From the NCBI GenBank assembly GCA_023014365.1, contig JAEBUN010000009.1, positions 930,001 to 994,000 of the forward strand: 64,000 nt of DNA. The letters are read 5' to 3'. Position numbers and translations under genes: made by a program. Shown here piece after piece: positions 22,301 through 27,733 of this stretch. The notes beneath the pieces were generated by a model. The model had not been told where the DNA came from and searched no databases. It saw only the letters and a list, made by a program, of their open reading frames with translations. Numbering within the stretch: the first letter of the stretch is position 1; the number at the start of each line of letters is the position of its first letter. The stretch comes from Lepiota brunneoincarnata (lineage: Eukaryota; Basidiomycota; Agaricomycetes; Agaricales; Agaricaceae).

Positions 22301-23983
22301 CGGATGCTGAAGAGCAGAACTGGGGTTGATTCCCAGTTGTCGTGAGTCAACATCGAGGCTAGCCAGTCGTTGGGCACTTGGGGCCAGGATTTGAGAGTTA
22401 CCGAGACCCTGCGCGAGGGTCTGAGGTTTATGCACTGGTATGACCAAGGTGGAACGCGTGCCCTGTTCCAGTAATTCTGCAAAAATACGATTCCTGGAAA
22501 TAAATATCACCCATGACCACCAACAGAGAGACAGTGGCACCTACTGGCGAGCCATCCAGCTCCAAAACTCAAACGTCTCTTCGCCAATACCCCAACCCCT
22601 TGAAAAGTCGCCGAACTTGCGCGTATGCATGGAGTGGTGTGATAACGCAAGGCTATGTTCATTATTATAGAGGTAGAGTTTAGTAATCTAGTCAAGTGAA
22701 ATTCAAGTAACATTTTCCGTGCGGATGGCTGTTGGACATACTTTGACGTTGATGGTATCAGCCAGAACCTTTGCCTCGGCCCACCGTTTTGTCCGTGGTG
22801 GCAAGATCGCAGGAGATCCAAACATGATCACGAGCGTTCCATAAGCATCCTGATAGTGCCTGTGGACAAGTTCACAAAAGTCGCCAAACGGTGACAGGGA
22901 TAATCTCACTTAAGAGCTACTTCATCCTCTCCTCGAAATTCTGCGAAGCAGGCCATCTTGTATTCGTAGCGTACTGTCCACCCTTCAGGTCTCAGAGGCC
23001 GGGTGATGTTACCAATAGGAGCGTTGGAATAAGACGATACGGCGGTGGAATGTCTATTCCTTTTTCTCCGCACCCTTTTCGAGTGTGCTGTATAGTATTC
23101 CAGTGCTGGATCGTATAGAGCTTGAGAGAGACTTGATCGATGATTACTTTGAGTTTAGATTCCATGATGCGATACACACCTTTTCACAAATTCACCCAAC
23201 TCCGTAGGACTCACTGGACTCAGTACGAAGAGGGCCGCTCTTGAATCCAACCCGCTGTGACGTCGTATGTGTGTCAGCCTTGCGTCCAATGTAGGGTCAT
23301 CTACCAAACAGAAAAAGCTAAGCTTTCACGAATATCACACCATACACTAAACGTTTACCTAACAACTTTCGACTCGCCAGCAGGACGACTGTCAGTTTGA
23401 TGTTCCTCTCATTCGTAGACCTTTTCCTGTGCGCAATCTCGGCGGAGAGGTCTGTATCTCTCTTTCGCTCCTCCGCCTCCCTTTCCTTCTCCCTATCAGC
23501 GTCAGGGCCTTCCAAAGGAGATTTGGGGTCGTTCGATGGATGCTCATAAAGCCTCAGGAACATAACAAACACAGAGGGCACAAGCGTCGTGTGCTTGCGT
23601 ATCCATATTGGCGCGATTAGACCATCAGGGTGCAGTGGAGAGCTCGGAGTCAAGGGTGACAGTGGCGAATGCGCAGATGCATATTGAGAGTCCTCGGGTG
23701 GTACTAGCTTGCGAGGAGGAAATCGTGTTTCCCTATCAACCAAGACGACTTGGAACGTCTTTGATTTCTCCGGTTGCCATATCATGACCTTGCGTTGTGC
23801 GGTGAGAGCTTCGCGTAATCTGAAAATGAGGATATGGAATGGATCCTGGGATTTAACGGCAAGGGGCTGGGGCGATGTGGGTGTTGCTGGTAGCTGCTGA
23901 GCCGCACCATGCGGGACGTCCAAGCCCGCGACGAACATTACTGGCGCAAGCTGTGCCAGCAGTTCTGGAGGGTACGAGTTCAT
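19312..23983 (-). CDS. TRAPPC11: TRAPP complex subunit 11 (foie gras/Gryzun family)
   Basis: Sixteen exons: 23983..23359, 23300..23180, 23131..22910, 22859..22742, 22687..22545, 22493..22226, 22172..22095, 22041..21899, 21848..21703, 21640..21591, 21540..21477, 21422..20888, 20836..20673, 20624..20064, 20001..19881, 19828..19312. 3876 nt, 1291 aa, no frame problem. Starts MNSYPPELLAQLAPVMFVAGL. The foie gras domain shows RWAEAKVLADTINVK and the conserved HPGFYYYAAARCTE. It continues LYTKAYEVFKKYNPG, LWIAYRIAQTYCDSG and FFERIAKTYRREHWGSM. The C-terminal third is beta-rich (Gryzun). It is a subunit of the TRAPP tethering complex (TRAPPIII type), acting in ER-Golgi traffic and autophagy. An acidic low-complexity insert near 20430-20470 (SPMDEEEEERQ) is probably disordered. 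Confidence 0.93.
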
Positions 23984-24333
23984 GGTTGCATAAGGAAATT
24001 ACTTGAGCCTTAGAGTAAAATGCCAGGTGCGGTAGGTTGTGTGCTAACACCACCTGCTCCAAACATCTCTCGTTTGCATGTCAGAAATAATCAACCTCTT
24101 CCAGTAGTTCGAGGTGCACAGCATTTTACTATAAGCTTCAGAAATGCATCCCGTGTTCAAGGGTATACAGTATCGGAAGGTATCTGTGGGAGTAGGTGCC
24201 GTAGCCAAACATCCCCAATGGTGTATACCGAGTCAACCAATATCTTAACAAGCACAATGAAATGCGACCAGGGGTGGCAAGAGTAGCAACGCTATAAACA
24301 GTTAACACAAAAGCCAGACAACTTTGCTCGTCC
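23984..24333. other. TRAPPC11 upstream region / HUB1 3' flank
   Basis: 350 bp between the TRAPPC11 start and the HUB1 stop, both genes on the minus strand. It must carry the HUB1 polyadenylation region and the TRAPPC11 promoter. No ORF with motifs. Confidence 0.35.
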
Positions 24334-25529
24334 TCAACCATAGTACATCTCCATGCTCATTCCATCATGGATCTCATAATCGTCAAGTGAGATATGATTC
24401 TTATAGATTATGTTCCTGAAAATCGCGCATTACCATTTCAGTTGCCCACGCACGCCACGGAATGCCAACTTACGCCTTTTTCAGCTGAATCTTTTCCCCC
24501 TTCGTACCAATCTGCGCAGCGATCAACATCTTCAGGTCTTTCACTGTATCATTCGGGCTGCATTTCACCCGCACTACGGGGTATTTCGAGTCCGAGCTGG
24601 TGGTCATGTACCGGCGATGCGCATACCTTTCTGGCCCAGACGATCATTTGCGATAACCTGAGTAATAGTATTCAGCATAAGCTTACTCTGCAGGACTCAT
24701 CCGACGTACCTCGATGAGAGGTTCTTCCTGTAGAATCATGAGCATACTGAAGTGACAAGCACATCCGACATACCTCCTCCTCCTCGGATGTGTCCTGAAG
24801 ATCATGAGCATGCTGGAGCAACAAGTGCATCTGACATACCTCGTCCTCGGATATTTCCTGAAGGTCGTGAGTGAACTGAAACAAGGAGTAGATCCAACCT
24901 ACCTTGCTGGTCTTGGATTTTTTCTGAGGGCCGTGAGAGAGCTGAAACAACAACAAATGCATCTGACATACCCTGCTTGTCTCGGGTTTTTCCTGAGAAT
25001 TATCAGCATGATGAAGCGACAAGAAGTACATACACCTAATATACCTCATCGTCCTCGGACACGTCCTGAAACATTGTGAGGATGCTAGATCAACAAGCAC
25101 GTCCGACATACCTTGTCCTTGGATCTTTTCTGAGAATCGTGAGCAGGTTGAAGCAAAAATTGAATCCGACTTACCTTGCTAGTCTCGGGTTTTTCCTTAG
25201 GATCATCAGTATGATGCGATACCATGTACTGTAAATCTGACATTACCTCATCGTCCTCCGACACGTCCTGAAGATCGTGAGCATGCTAGAGCAACAAGCG
25301 CATGTGGTATACCTCGTCCTTGTGTCTTTTCTGGGGATTGTGAGTTGCTTTAAGCAAGGAGTGAATCCGACTTACCCTGCTAGTTTTGGGTTTCTCCTGA
25401 GGATTGTCAGCAGTTTGAAGCAGGAACAAATGTGCCTGACACACCCTGTTTATCTCGTATGTTCCCTGAAGACTGTCAGTGTTGAAGTGACAACAAGTGC
25501 TTCTGACATACCGCGACGCGTCCAGACAT
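24334..25529 (-). CDS. HUB1: HUB1/UBL5 ubiquitin-like splicing modulator with micro-exon-encoded N-terminal repeat
   Basis: Sixteen exons in 1196 bp: 25529..25512, 25465..25445, 25396..25376, 25330..25313, 25267..25247, 25195..25175, 25129..25112, 25065..25045, 24992..24972, 24923..24903, 24857..24840, 24794..24774, 24727..24710, 24657..24627, 24573..24474, 24415..24334. 471 nt, 156 aa, in frame. The last exons encode the HUB1 fold: [53 protein letters not shown], ending Gly. HUB1 binds spliceosomal partners such as Snu66 non-covalently and affects weak 5' splice sites. The Asp used in that contact (D22 of the standard protein) is kept, but the usual Lys-Lys-Trp-Tyr is Lys-Lys-Ala-Asn. The first 80 residues are an unusual charged repeat (see the repeat entry). 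The splice model rests on consistent GT-AG ends, branch sites and phase, not on transcript data. Confidence 0.88.
24710..25529 (-). repeat. Tandem array of micro-exon + intron units in HUB1
   Basis: Thirteen consecutive exons of 18 or 21 nt (start exon MSGRVA, then twelve), all beginning and ending between codons. They encode GTYEINR, EKPKTSR, KRHKDE, DVSEDDE, EKPETSK, KRSKDK, DVSEDDE, EKPETSR, KKSKTSK, EISEDE, DTSEEEE, EEPLIE. The order acidic / mixed / basic repeats every three exons, giving a higher-order unit of about 202-208 bp. Introns are 45-52 nt, mostly starting GTATGTCRGAT and ending near GCTCAYGATCTTCAG. CTCAY or CTGAY branch-like sites lie about 7-12 nt before the acceptor. The introns are similar to each other, so whole exon-intron modules were duplicated. 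Confidence 0.85.
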
Positions 25530-25752: not shown

Positions 25753-27733
25753 CTACGAGTATGTCGTCGAATCTTGCAGACGCCATCGCCACAATGGCCC
25801 CCACCACCAGATGGATCTCGGCCTCGCCTGAGGTTGCACAGGAGGGTTTGAAGCCGTTGGAGCGGAGGCGGCACCTTCCTCATCCAGGGATCCCCTCCTT
25901 CCTCCGCCCCGCTCCTGCCGGCTTTCTGGACTAGGACTCCTGCCATTTTCAATCCCCCCCAGCTCTTCACCGATCGGATGACGTCCGCTATCACTATCCT
26001 CACCGCGATCCCGACTCTGCCTATTTCGCCTCCATTCACTTCTCTCATAGAGCTCGTACTCCCCTTCGCGTCTGTCACCTTCCGCATCCATATCAACGCC
26101 CCTTCCCACGCTGTTTTCCCTCCTCGTTCTCGTGCGCCACAATAGATTACTAACTCCCCATGTAGAGCTTGAAGCATCAGACACCCCATTCCTCTCCATT
26201 TCTCGTATCCTCTCTACCCTCTCGGCCGCCTGTTTTTGCGCGGCAATCAGATGTGCGTGTCGTACGCTGGCATAGAACCGATGGACAGTGCGAGGTAGAA
26301 TGCGGGGAAGAGTCCTGAGACTTGTTCCGGATGATGTGCTCGAGGAAGACACGACAGACCGGGCAGGAGAGCCTGGCGGGGAATCAGAGTTCGCAGAGTG
26401 CGGCGATTCAGTTGATGAAGTTCCTTCAGGTGGTACTCGTATCCGAATACGAGACAACTGGCTAGGTGATCGGGTTGCTGACTCGGCCGAGGAGCTGTGG
26501 ACAATAGTCCTCATATCATGGTGTTCCCTCCCAAACGCCCCGGTAACATCGCGCCATACCCTTTGTGCACGCTTCTTCGTCTCCTGTCTTCGCTCTCTGG
26601 CCTCTCGTCGCCTGTTTTCTCGTTTGGCTTCCCTTCTCAGCTTTTCTTCCATATCGTCATCTCCACCCAACCCACTTCCACTTCCGGCACCAACCCACCA
26701 CCACCACCCCAGGAAGCTCTGCCATAATACGACAGCCCACATGAGACCGGGTAGCCAAGCGTATTCCTCTTCCCGGTGAACGTAAATAAAGTTCAGTGCA
26801 GTTGAGAAGAGAGCGAGAGTCAACGCCGCACAACCAAAGACGGCAGTTCCGCCATCAGTTCGCCAGGCTTGCTTCCTGTTGACAAGGAGACCCCAGATGA
26901 AAAGGGCAACAGTGAAGAGGAGAGAAAGCGTGGCATTGCACACATTCCTGACGGCGGCTGCGACATATGCTACTTCAAGGCTAGCATTGATGGGAATAAG
27001 TTGCATGACGGCGGCTACGATAGCCATTGGGCCTGGAGATCGAGGATAAGCGGTATTGCGGCATAAAATAAGTGCTACTGAACCCACCGAGAAGCGCGAA
27101 AATGAGTTGTTTCTCAAGGCGTGAAGGATAAAGAAGAGTCAAAAATTGAATGTGGGTTATCTGCAAACGGGGTGAGCCTTCCTGGGAAATAACAGAGAAA
27201 GACACGAACAGACCTGGATCAAGCCAGACGTCGAGGCATTCATCACAAGCCAGGTCGCTTTCTCTGCGATGCTCCATCCCTCGGGATCGTTATCGAGATC
27301 CATTGGTGGAACATTGACCGCAATATAGCTCAGCATATAAGGCCAGTTTTCACTTTCGGTCATGCTCGTGGACAGGACGACGTGGATGGTTGCGATCAGA
27401 GAGATAAGCAGAGTTGTAACCCCGGATACTTGGAGCACATAGTTAACAGGAGCCAGTGGCCAATGATACTGGGCAGTAAACATGAGATGGATGAAGAGAA
27501 CGACGGTGAGTGTGAGGACAACGCCAGTTAAAAGGATCTGGATCGGGAGCGAGCGAACAAAGGGGGGTCGGTACTTGAGATATGGGTCTTCTAAAAACCT
27601 GGAGCAACATTTAAAGGGGTAGAGACAGAATAGACACGGCATATACTCACTCTCCTTGGCCACGCTCCTGGGCAGCTACCAGCGTCACCAGCAGCAGAAT
27701 CGCTGCCAGCTTGAGAAGATGGCGAAATTTCAT
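25753..27733 (-). CDS. Polytopic membrane protein with signal peptide and long cytosolic-type tail (unknown function)
   Basis: Four exons: 27733..27651, 27598..27214, 27160..27088, 27032..25753; 606 aa, in frame. The start at 27733 yields a clear signal peptide (MKFRHLLKLAAILLLVTLVAA). About seven hydrophobic segments follow, for example IQILLTGVVLTLTVVLFIHL, LLISLIATIHVVL, VCNATLSLLFTVALFIWGLL and MWAVVLWQSFLGWWWW. The rest (~330 residues) is hydrophilic: a basic coiled-coil-like run (EEKLRREAKRENRRREARER), Ser/Pro-rich stretches and acidic patches. The topology resembles a receptor-like protein, but I recognise no family signature and assign no function. Confidence 0.75.

Follow-up and report, generated by a model that had tools for sequence, protein, structure and literature searches.

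A tandem array of predicted micro-exons at the 5' end of the HUB1 gene of Lepiota brunneoincarnata

The single HUB1 gene detected in the genome of Lepiota brunneoincarnata carries at its 5' end a tandem repeat in which each unit consists of one predicted micro-exon and one short intron. The explanation favored here, with a probability of roughly 0.68, is that tandem expansion of this unit gave the gene an N-terminal tail and that the introns of the array are spliced out. The locus looks like a natural case in which tandem duplication has multiplied the introns of a splicing-factor gene and the start codon of a conserved small protein has apparently been taken over by a repeat. An earlier sequence-only reading of the same DNA described the small exons and recorded neither the exon-intron repeat nor the replacement of the start methionine by leucine.

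Results and Discussion

Gene structure

The gene model was re-derived from the minus strand, where it covers positions 25529-24334, corresponding to 1196 bp of the 64-kb window (the whole stretch of DNA that was analyzed). The 16 exons given for this interval by the sequence-only reading were recovered (Table 1), and they form a predicted coding sequence of 471 nt that encodes 156 amino acids with 0 internal stops. As that reading had also stated, the first thirteen exons are all 18 or 21 nt long (13/13); they are consecutive, symmetric multiples of three in phase 0. Exons 14-16 constitute the HUB1 core. Introns 1-13 are 45-52 nt long and have GT-AG boundaries, a regularity that is partly due to construction because the boundaries were placed there. 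The exon lengths vary by 3 nt only; the intron lengths of 45, 46, 48, 51 and 52 nt differ by amounts that shift the frame.

Three neighboring ORFs at 23318-23998, 25753-27138 and 27157-27675 (-) gave Pfam matches in 0/3 cases at E 0.01; the latter two contain hydrophobic stretches as judged by eye.

Table 1. Position and content of the exons and repeat features of the HUB1 gene, in window coordinates.
Feature	Position	Strand	Description
Exon 1	25512..25529	-	18 nt, MSGRVA, start codon; with its 5' flank resembles a decayed repeat unit
Exon 2	25445..25465	-	21 nt, GTYEINR
Exon 3	25376..25396	-	21 nt, EKPKTSR, type A
Exon 4	25313..25330	-	18 nt, KRHKDE, type B
Exon 5	25247..25267	-	21 nt, DVSEDDE, type C
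Exon 6	25175..25195	-	21 nt, EKPETSK, type A
Exon 7	25112..25129	-	18 nt, KRSKDK, type B
Exon 8	25045..25065	-	21 nt, DVSEDDE, type C
Exon 9	24972..24992	-	21 nt, EKPETSR, type A
Exon 10	24903..24923	-	21 nt, KKSKTSK, A/B intermediate
Exon 11	24840..24857	-	18 nt, EISEDE, B/C intermediate
Exon 12	24774..24794	-	21 nt, DTSEEEE, type C
Exon 13	24710..24727	-	18 nt, EEPLIE; LIE where canonical HUB1 has N-terminal MIE (phmmer)
Exon 14	24627..24657	-	31 nt, HUB1 core
Exon 15	24474..24573	-	100 nt, HUB1 core; contains the Asp that aligns with canonical position 22
Exon 16	24334..24415	-	82 nt, end of HUB1 core and stop
Tandem array	24728..25511	-	introns 1-12 (45-52 nt) and micro-exons 2-12
Intron 13	24658..24709	-	presumed ancestral first intron; start resembles the start of the unit's intron

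HUB1 identity and copy number

The last 73 of the 156 residues are HUB1/UBL5, and an ungapped alignment with human and yeast HUB1 covers residues 84-155, bearing out the identification made in the sequence-only reading. A phmmer search of the PDB matched human UBL5 (6ahd) with an E value of 1.3e-26 and yeast Hub1 (1m94) with 1.9e-21, the top matches being six distinct UBL5/Hub1 sequences with E values of 8e-27 to 2.6e-21 (cut at 1e-10). When the HUB1 core alone was used as the query, ubiquitin sequences came next with E values of 4e-11 or weaker. The Pfam ubiquitin family PF00240 scored 22.4 bits against a cut-off of 25.4, and seven further Pfam rows (E 0.028-0.75) likewise fell short of their own cut-offs. 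The C-terminus reads EMYYG followed by the stop, giving the Tyr-Tyr-X end without Gly-Gly. NDT is aligned to human DDT, so that the Asp at position 22 is kept, as is the YEIHDG motif. The available text of PMC8431670 describes a conserved Asp-Arg bridge between HUB1 and HIND, and the number 22 for the bridging Asp follows an excerpt of PMC6857937.

The residues LIEV align on the MIEV of human and yeast HUB1, with the start methionine replaced by leucine (CTC). The junction between exons 13 and 14 is supported by this alignment, because joining the two exons restores the I-E-V that is aligned to MIEV. Since the canonical start methionine is now leucine, the predicted protein starts at the first exon of the array, and translation as modeled depends on the array. 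The gene model is not canonical in length, with 156 amino acids compared with approximately 73 amino acids starting with MIE. That length and start are not a defining biochemical feature of HUB1, because structures are available for HUB1 chains extended at the N-terminus; the HUB1 core begins at residue 21 of the 1m94 chain and at residue 28 of the 1uh6 chain. Solved chains with at least 20 extra N-terminal residues indicate that N-terminal additions are compatible with the fold.

No second HUB1 was found in the 55.6-Mb genome when the core of this protein and human UBL5 were used as queries (E ≤10, best candidates scored), the only sequences matched in either search being exons 15 and 16 of this locus. 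A match to SNU66/SART-1 is present in the genome, as is PRP38. The ORF directly upstream of the SNU66 match and in the same orientation (L007 2024-2314 (-), contig C2 of genome G000) reads MEQSISLEETNQIRISLGLKPL, which we take to be the HIND consensus. The HIND-like SLEETNQIRISLGLKPL lies in this ORF. The ORF was taken as the putative SNU66 5' exon with its HIND, and the locus described here was taken as the working HUB1 of the organism. Pseudogene status appears unlikely, given the uninterrupted frame and preserved signals across the 16 exons and the failure to find a further copy.

Repeat structure of the array

Tandem Repeats Finder (TRF) reported a period of 66 at 24819-24997 and a period of 201 at 24961-25404 with 2.2 copies. 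The repeat unit of approximately 66 bp corresponds to one micro-exon plus one intron, and it has partly been multiplied as a 201-bp triplet. The exons fall into type A (EKPxTSx), type B (KRxKDx) and type C (DVSEDDE), which follow one another in the order A-B-C, A-B-C, A-(A/B)-(B/C)-C. The repeat includes the introns: the pairwise identity of introns 1-12 is 53-87% with a mean of 67.0 (66 pairs), and each array intron has a mean identity of 62.1-73.4% to the other 11. By comparison, 65 intron-like background sequences averaged 54.7% against the array introns with a maximum of 60.2%. The mean identity to introns 1-12 was 58.8% for intron 13, 53.2% for intron 14 and 53.1% for intron 15. Because the array is a tandem exon-intron repeat, the similar sizes and equal phase of its exons need no regulatory purpose.

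The ends of the array are less clear. Exons 1, 2 and 13 alone showed no significant similarity to exons 3-12 (p 0.39, 0.061 and 0.20). Derivation from the repeat can therefore be regarded as secure for exons 3-12 and introns 1-12, and as no more than likely for the two ends. The 70-nt flank above the start codon resembled introns 1-12 with p 0.0087 for the mean and 0.14 for the best match (3000 random segments), and the 48-nt flank together with exon 1 resembled the 12 units with p(mean) of 0.0044 and p(max) of 0.13 (5000 random 66-mers). The start codon and exon 1 within the segment 25512-25577 (-) resemble the end of an intron followed by an exon of the repeat, for which the best match was intron 7 plus exon 8 (p 0.13); it is as if the start codon had been derived from a decayed repeat unit. 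At the other end, only 2/696 genomic 26-mers starting with GT scored as high against the array introns as the first 26 nt of intron 13. The last 26 nt of this intron gave a p of 0.063, and the whole intron a p(mean) of 0.028 and a p(max) of 0.012. These resemblances at the array edges are only suggestive, because the compared lengths were chosen after looking. No further array units were seen upstream, the next 66 nt giving p 0.42.

A whole-genome DNA search with 1061 array bases, in which simple repeats and very common words were skipped, found only the array itself. Searches for related arrays gave 12 pattern stretches in viral contigs and 101 in prokaryotic contigs, with 0 confirmed in either set.

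Likelihood of the exon chain

The arrangement of short exons and introns was assessed with a chain search that used the donor GTRN[AGT], CTNA[CT] before an [ACT]AG acceptor, introns of 40-65 nt and exons of 12-27 nt that were free of stops and divisible by three; these signal patterns are loose and were chosen with the array already known. For the gene region the output was exactly the 13 introns of the model, and the opposite strand of the gene gave 1 intron. The maximum was 2 introns in window positions 1-24000 and 25801-64000 and in 1000 dinucleotide shuffles, the latter leaving tandem duplication unmodeled. Twenty background segments of 10 kb from the same genome (40 strands) gave 34 strands at 1 intron and 6 at 2. 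No similar array was thus seen in the 200 kb of background plus the window, where the chain maximum was 2. The comparison with shuffles and background rejects a chance origin of the array. The chain of 13 introns does not represent 13 independent events, because one good unit, once copied, supplies the rest.

Two further explanations were rejected. Corresponding blocks of the array differ at 13-25% of exon sites and 21-25% of intron sites, a divergence that would be too high for a duplicated misassembly and argues against a recent assembly artefact. A continuous unspliced coding repeat is contradicted by the introns, of which 1, 4, 7, 8 and 13 contain stops and 1, 7, 8, 12 and 13 shift the frame.

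Splice signals and sequence constraint

An array of such tiny exons had been described as about the hardest splicing substrate imaginable, a view that the signals do not support. The donor GTRNGT is found in 10/13 introns, the acceptor CAG in 12/13 and a CT[CG]A[CT] branch-like motif in 12/13 (introns 1-12, intron 13 being without a match). The branch-like motif starts 11 nt before the terminal acceptor triplet in ten introns and 12 nt before it in introns 7 and 12. The non-consensus donors are GTATAC in intron 4, GTAATG in intron 5 and GTATAT in intron 8.

GT, AG and CTNA have been kept despite divergence of the other intron columns. The non-signal intron columns (39 columns) gave a tree length of 3.16 substitutions per site for the 12 units, from which the neutral chance of four sites remaining unchanged over the unit tree is approximately 3e-6. 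Equivalent values from exon columns or from all columns were 2.5e-5 and 3e-5, and all three estimates are rough since the alignment is short, the splice sites of introns 5 and 12 are misplaced in it and the boundaries were set at GT/AG.

Constraint on the exons was less apparent. Substitution rates between corresponding blocks were 0.13, 0.25 and 0.18 for the exons and 0.24, 0.25 and 0.31 for the intron interior, a difference that did not reach significance (Fisher p values of 0.19, 1.0 and 0.16, or 0.027, 0.15 and 0.015 when gap columns were included). Over all units the mean p-distance was 0.43 for exon columns compared with 0.38 for the intron interior, and 22/32 changed codons in ten exon pairs were nonsynonymous (a raw count, uncorrected for opportunity). 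Strong purifying selection on the micro-exon sequence was looked for in the block and unit comparisons and was not clearly found. The charge pattern of the tail is kept between units as judged by eye. From these comparisons, the splice architecture looks maintained, while the tail seems to tolerate changes in its exact residues.

The 80 residues encoded by exons 1-12 comprise 20 K+R, 28 D+E, 17 S+T and 8 hydrophobic residues; the charged 80-residue extension noticed earlier is therefore found again, and exon 13 adds EEPLIE. The 86 residues of exons 1-13 contain six [ST]xx[DE] sites, presumably CK2-like motifs. The 80-residue tail is probably disordered. As regards the signal peptide typical of schistosome micro-exon genes, the predicted N-terminus MSGRVAGTYEINREKPK is not hydrophobic as judged by eye.

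Consequences of intron retention and exon skipping

Introns 2, 3, 5, 6, 9, 10 and 11 (7/13) are multiples of 3 and stop-free, and retention of any one of them would insert 15-17 residues with no truncation. Such a correlation among the seven frame-keeping introns is expected via common descent. Retention of any of the other six introns in the array region would give a stop or a frame shift, the stop being in frame when intron 4 or 8 is retained. Skipping of one unit would require an intron of 108-121 nt compared with the usual 45-52 nt.

These properties could point to a generator of isoforms, in which subsets of micro-exons would be skipped or introns retained and HUB1 tails of many lengths would be produced without any feedback by HUB1. 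The symmetry of 13/13 micro-exons and the 7/13 introns retainable without truncation agree with such a role. So do the statement in the available text of McGuire 2008 (PMC2397502) that cassette exons, where present, are shorter than constitutive exons, and the alternatively spliced fungal microexons of the truffle nank family reported in an excerpt of PMC4986451 citing Iotti 2012. However, cassette exons are rare in fungi: McGuire 2008 (PMC2397502) reports that in fungi and protists retained introns outnumber them by a factor of 37. The symmetry and the open introns, moreover, follow from copying one unit and count as roughly one event rather than many. Production of isoforms in this way is considered unlikely.

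The array might instead be dispensable 5' flank, with transcription beginning inside it and a short HUB1 being translated from an ATG in the tail of intron 12 or 13. In-frame ATGs with no stop before HUB1 are available, two in the tail of intron 12 (24728-24745 (-)) and one in the tail of intron 13 (24658-24678 (-)), and in the PDB alignments of HUB1/UBL5 the protein proper starts at MIE. Similar in-frame ATGs are, however, equally present in the tails of introns 5, 7, 8, 9 and 11, so those of introns 12 and 13 are not special, and a start in intron 13 would lose the conserved IE. Such a short product would also fail to account for the 13/13 exons being open and multiples of three, and for the preservation of donor, branch motif and acceptor within the array; a start inside it is considered quite improbable.

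A third possibility is that the array acts as a sensor, HUB1 activity setting the number of included units or the removal of introns 4, 5 and 8. Yeast HUB1 promotes the removal of introns with weak 5' splice sites and acts on the SRC1 and PRP5 transcripts, as given in the accessible part of PMC7615767; introns 4, 5 and 8 are without GTRNGT, and a retained intron 4 or 8 meets an in-frame stop. HUB1 dependence of these three introns is thus possible, provided that their non-consensus donors are weak in this organism. Against a sensor, donors are consensus in 10/13 introns. Because a retained intron 4 or 8 truncates HUB1, help by HUB1 at these introns would constitute positive feedback and not homeostasis. 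It is very doubtful that HUB1 activity is read out in this way. Equally hard to credit is the specific form in which the array would be an autoregulatory splicing reporter, HUB1 governing the removal of introns 4, 5 and 8 and hence its own level or tail composition.

Origin and predicted processing of the array

Tandem expansion accounts best for the structure described above. A unit of approximately 66 bp, composed of a phase-0 micro-exon of 18-21 nt and a mini-intron of 45-52 nt, would have been tandemly duplicated at the 5' end of HUB1, and a three-unit block of 201 bp would later have been duplicated too. If the edges of the array have been read correctly, the duplicated stretch would have consisted of the old 5' UTR, the first exon and the first donor, and 5' UTR sequence would have supplied the new introns with their 3' halves. 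Since every unit would include a donor, a branch-like motif and an acceptor, each copy would add 6-7 codons with the frame and splicing undisturbed. The ancestral start codon would have been displaced in this process, changing MIEV to LIEV.

The spliceosome would most likely remove each short intron by intron definition, since recognition across the intron is expected for introns of 45-52 nt. Because the introns are short and skipping a unit needs a longer intron (108-121 nt), mostly constitutive removal with some retention is expected; the alternatively spliced microexons of the truffle gene family mean that constitutive inclusion cannot be assumed. The resulting HUB1 would carry an 80-residue tail in which some blocks are basic, some acidic (SEDDE) and some mixed. 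The HUB1 core should still dock on the HIND of SNU66, and the tail would probably alter the partners or the level of HUB1. In this expansion the micro-exons are most likely by-products of the duplication.

The array offers 12 related introns and 13 micro-exons whose order is known. It makes testable how a fungal-type spliceosome handles consecutive exons of 18-21 nt and what effect a long mixed-charge tail has on HUB1. Automatic gene prediction could easily miss such a gene.

Comparison with known systems

The protein shares with human UBL5 and yeast Hub1 the ungapped 72-residue core, the Asp at position 22 and the YY end, with YEIHDG as in human, and differs from them by the 80-residue N-terminal extension plus EEP and by the Met to Leu change at the start. 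Both Trp of the human UBL5 stretch TRWNKIVLKKWY are absent here, as they are in yeast. Function can be shared between distant species, since C. elegans UBL-5 rescues an S. pombe hub1 deletion (PMC7615767).

Very small exons are in use in other fungi. The examples of Trichoderma Xlr2, Fusarium CYP621A and Phanerochaete P450 described in excerpts of PMC11121469 and PMC12940212 are isolated micro-exons, in contrast to the array of thirteen seen here. The accessible text of PMC11121469 states that functional microexons are undescribed in filamentous fungi, a statement against which the truffle nank microexons stand (PMC4986451, in the part available). These nank NACHT-ANK genes of Tuber melanosporum resemble HUB1 here in that several tiny exons occur within one fungal gene (PMC4986451, which cites Iotti 2012). 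According to the same source, their exons are codon-sized, they belong to an expanded NLR-type family and their alternative splicing has been reported; in HUB1 the exons are 18-21 nt, no second copy was detected and splicing is predicted.

The schistosome micro-exon genes (MEGs) likewise contain strings of tiny exons that are mostly multiples of 3, and according to PMC10526429 the proteins that they encode are secreted and their introns range from 100 to almost 5000 bp. HUB1 resembles these genes in having many consecutive tiny symmetric exons (13/13) and departs from them in its introns of 45-52 bp, which lack the length of schistosome MEG introns, in encoding a splicing factor and in having a repeat unit of exon plus intron. 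Among the matches listed in searches of the open-licence PMC literature, no paper was found that treats Hub1/UBL5 together with a microexon, and none on a micro-exon HUB1 in mushrooms or basidiomycetes, in line with the earlier remark that no micro-exon HUB1 had been reported.

For the mechanism there are precedents. Intron gain by tandem duplication is reported for potato (PMC4974935). The Cryptococcus gene CNN00420 gained introns when a repeat that contains an intron expanded, a case supported by ESTs (Sharpton 2008, PMC2395259), so that in both basidiomycete genes a tandem repeat including the whole intron multiplies introns. The excerpt of PMC2395259 gives a repeat of approximately 107 nt with near-identical copies and 6 introns for CNN00420, compared with a unit of approximately 66 nt and 12 diverged array introns in HUB1. 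The mechanism suggested for the origin of the HUB1 array therefore appears to have a precedent in CNN00420.
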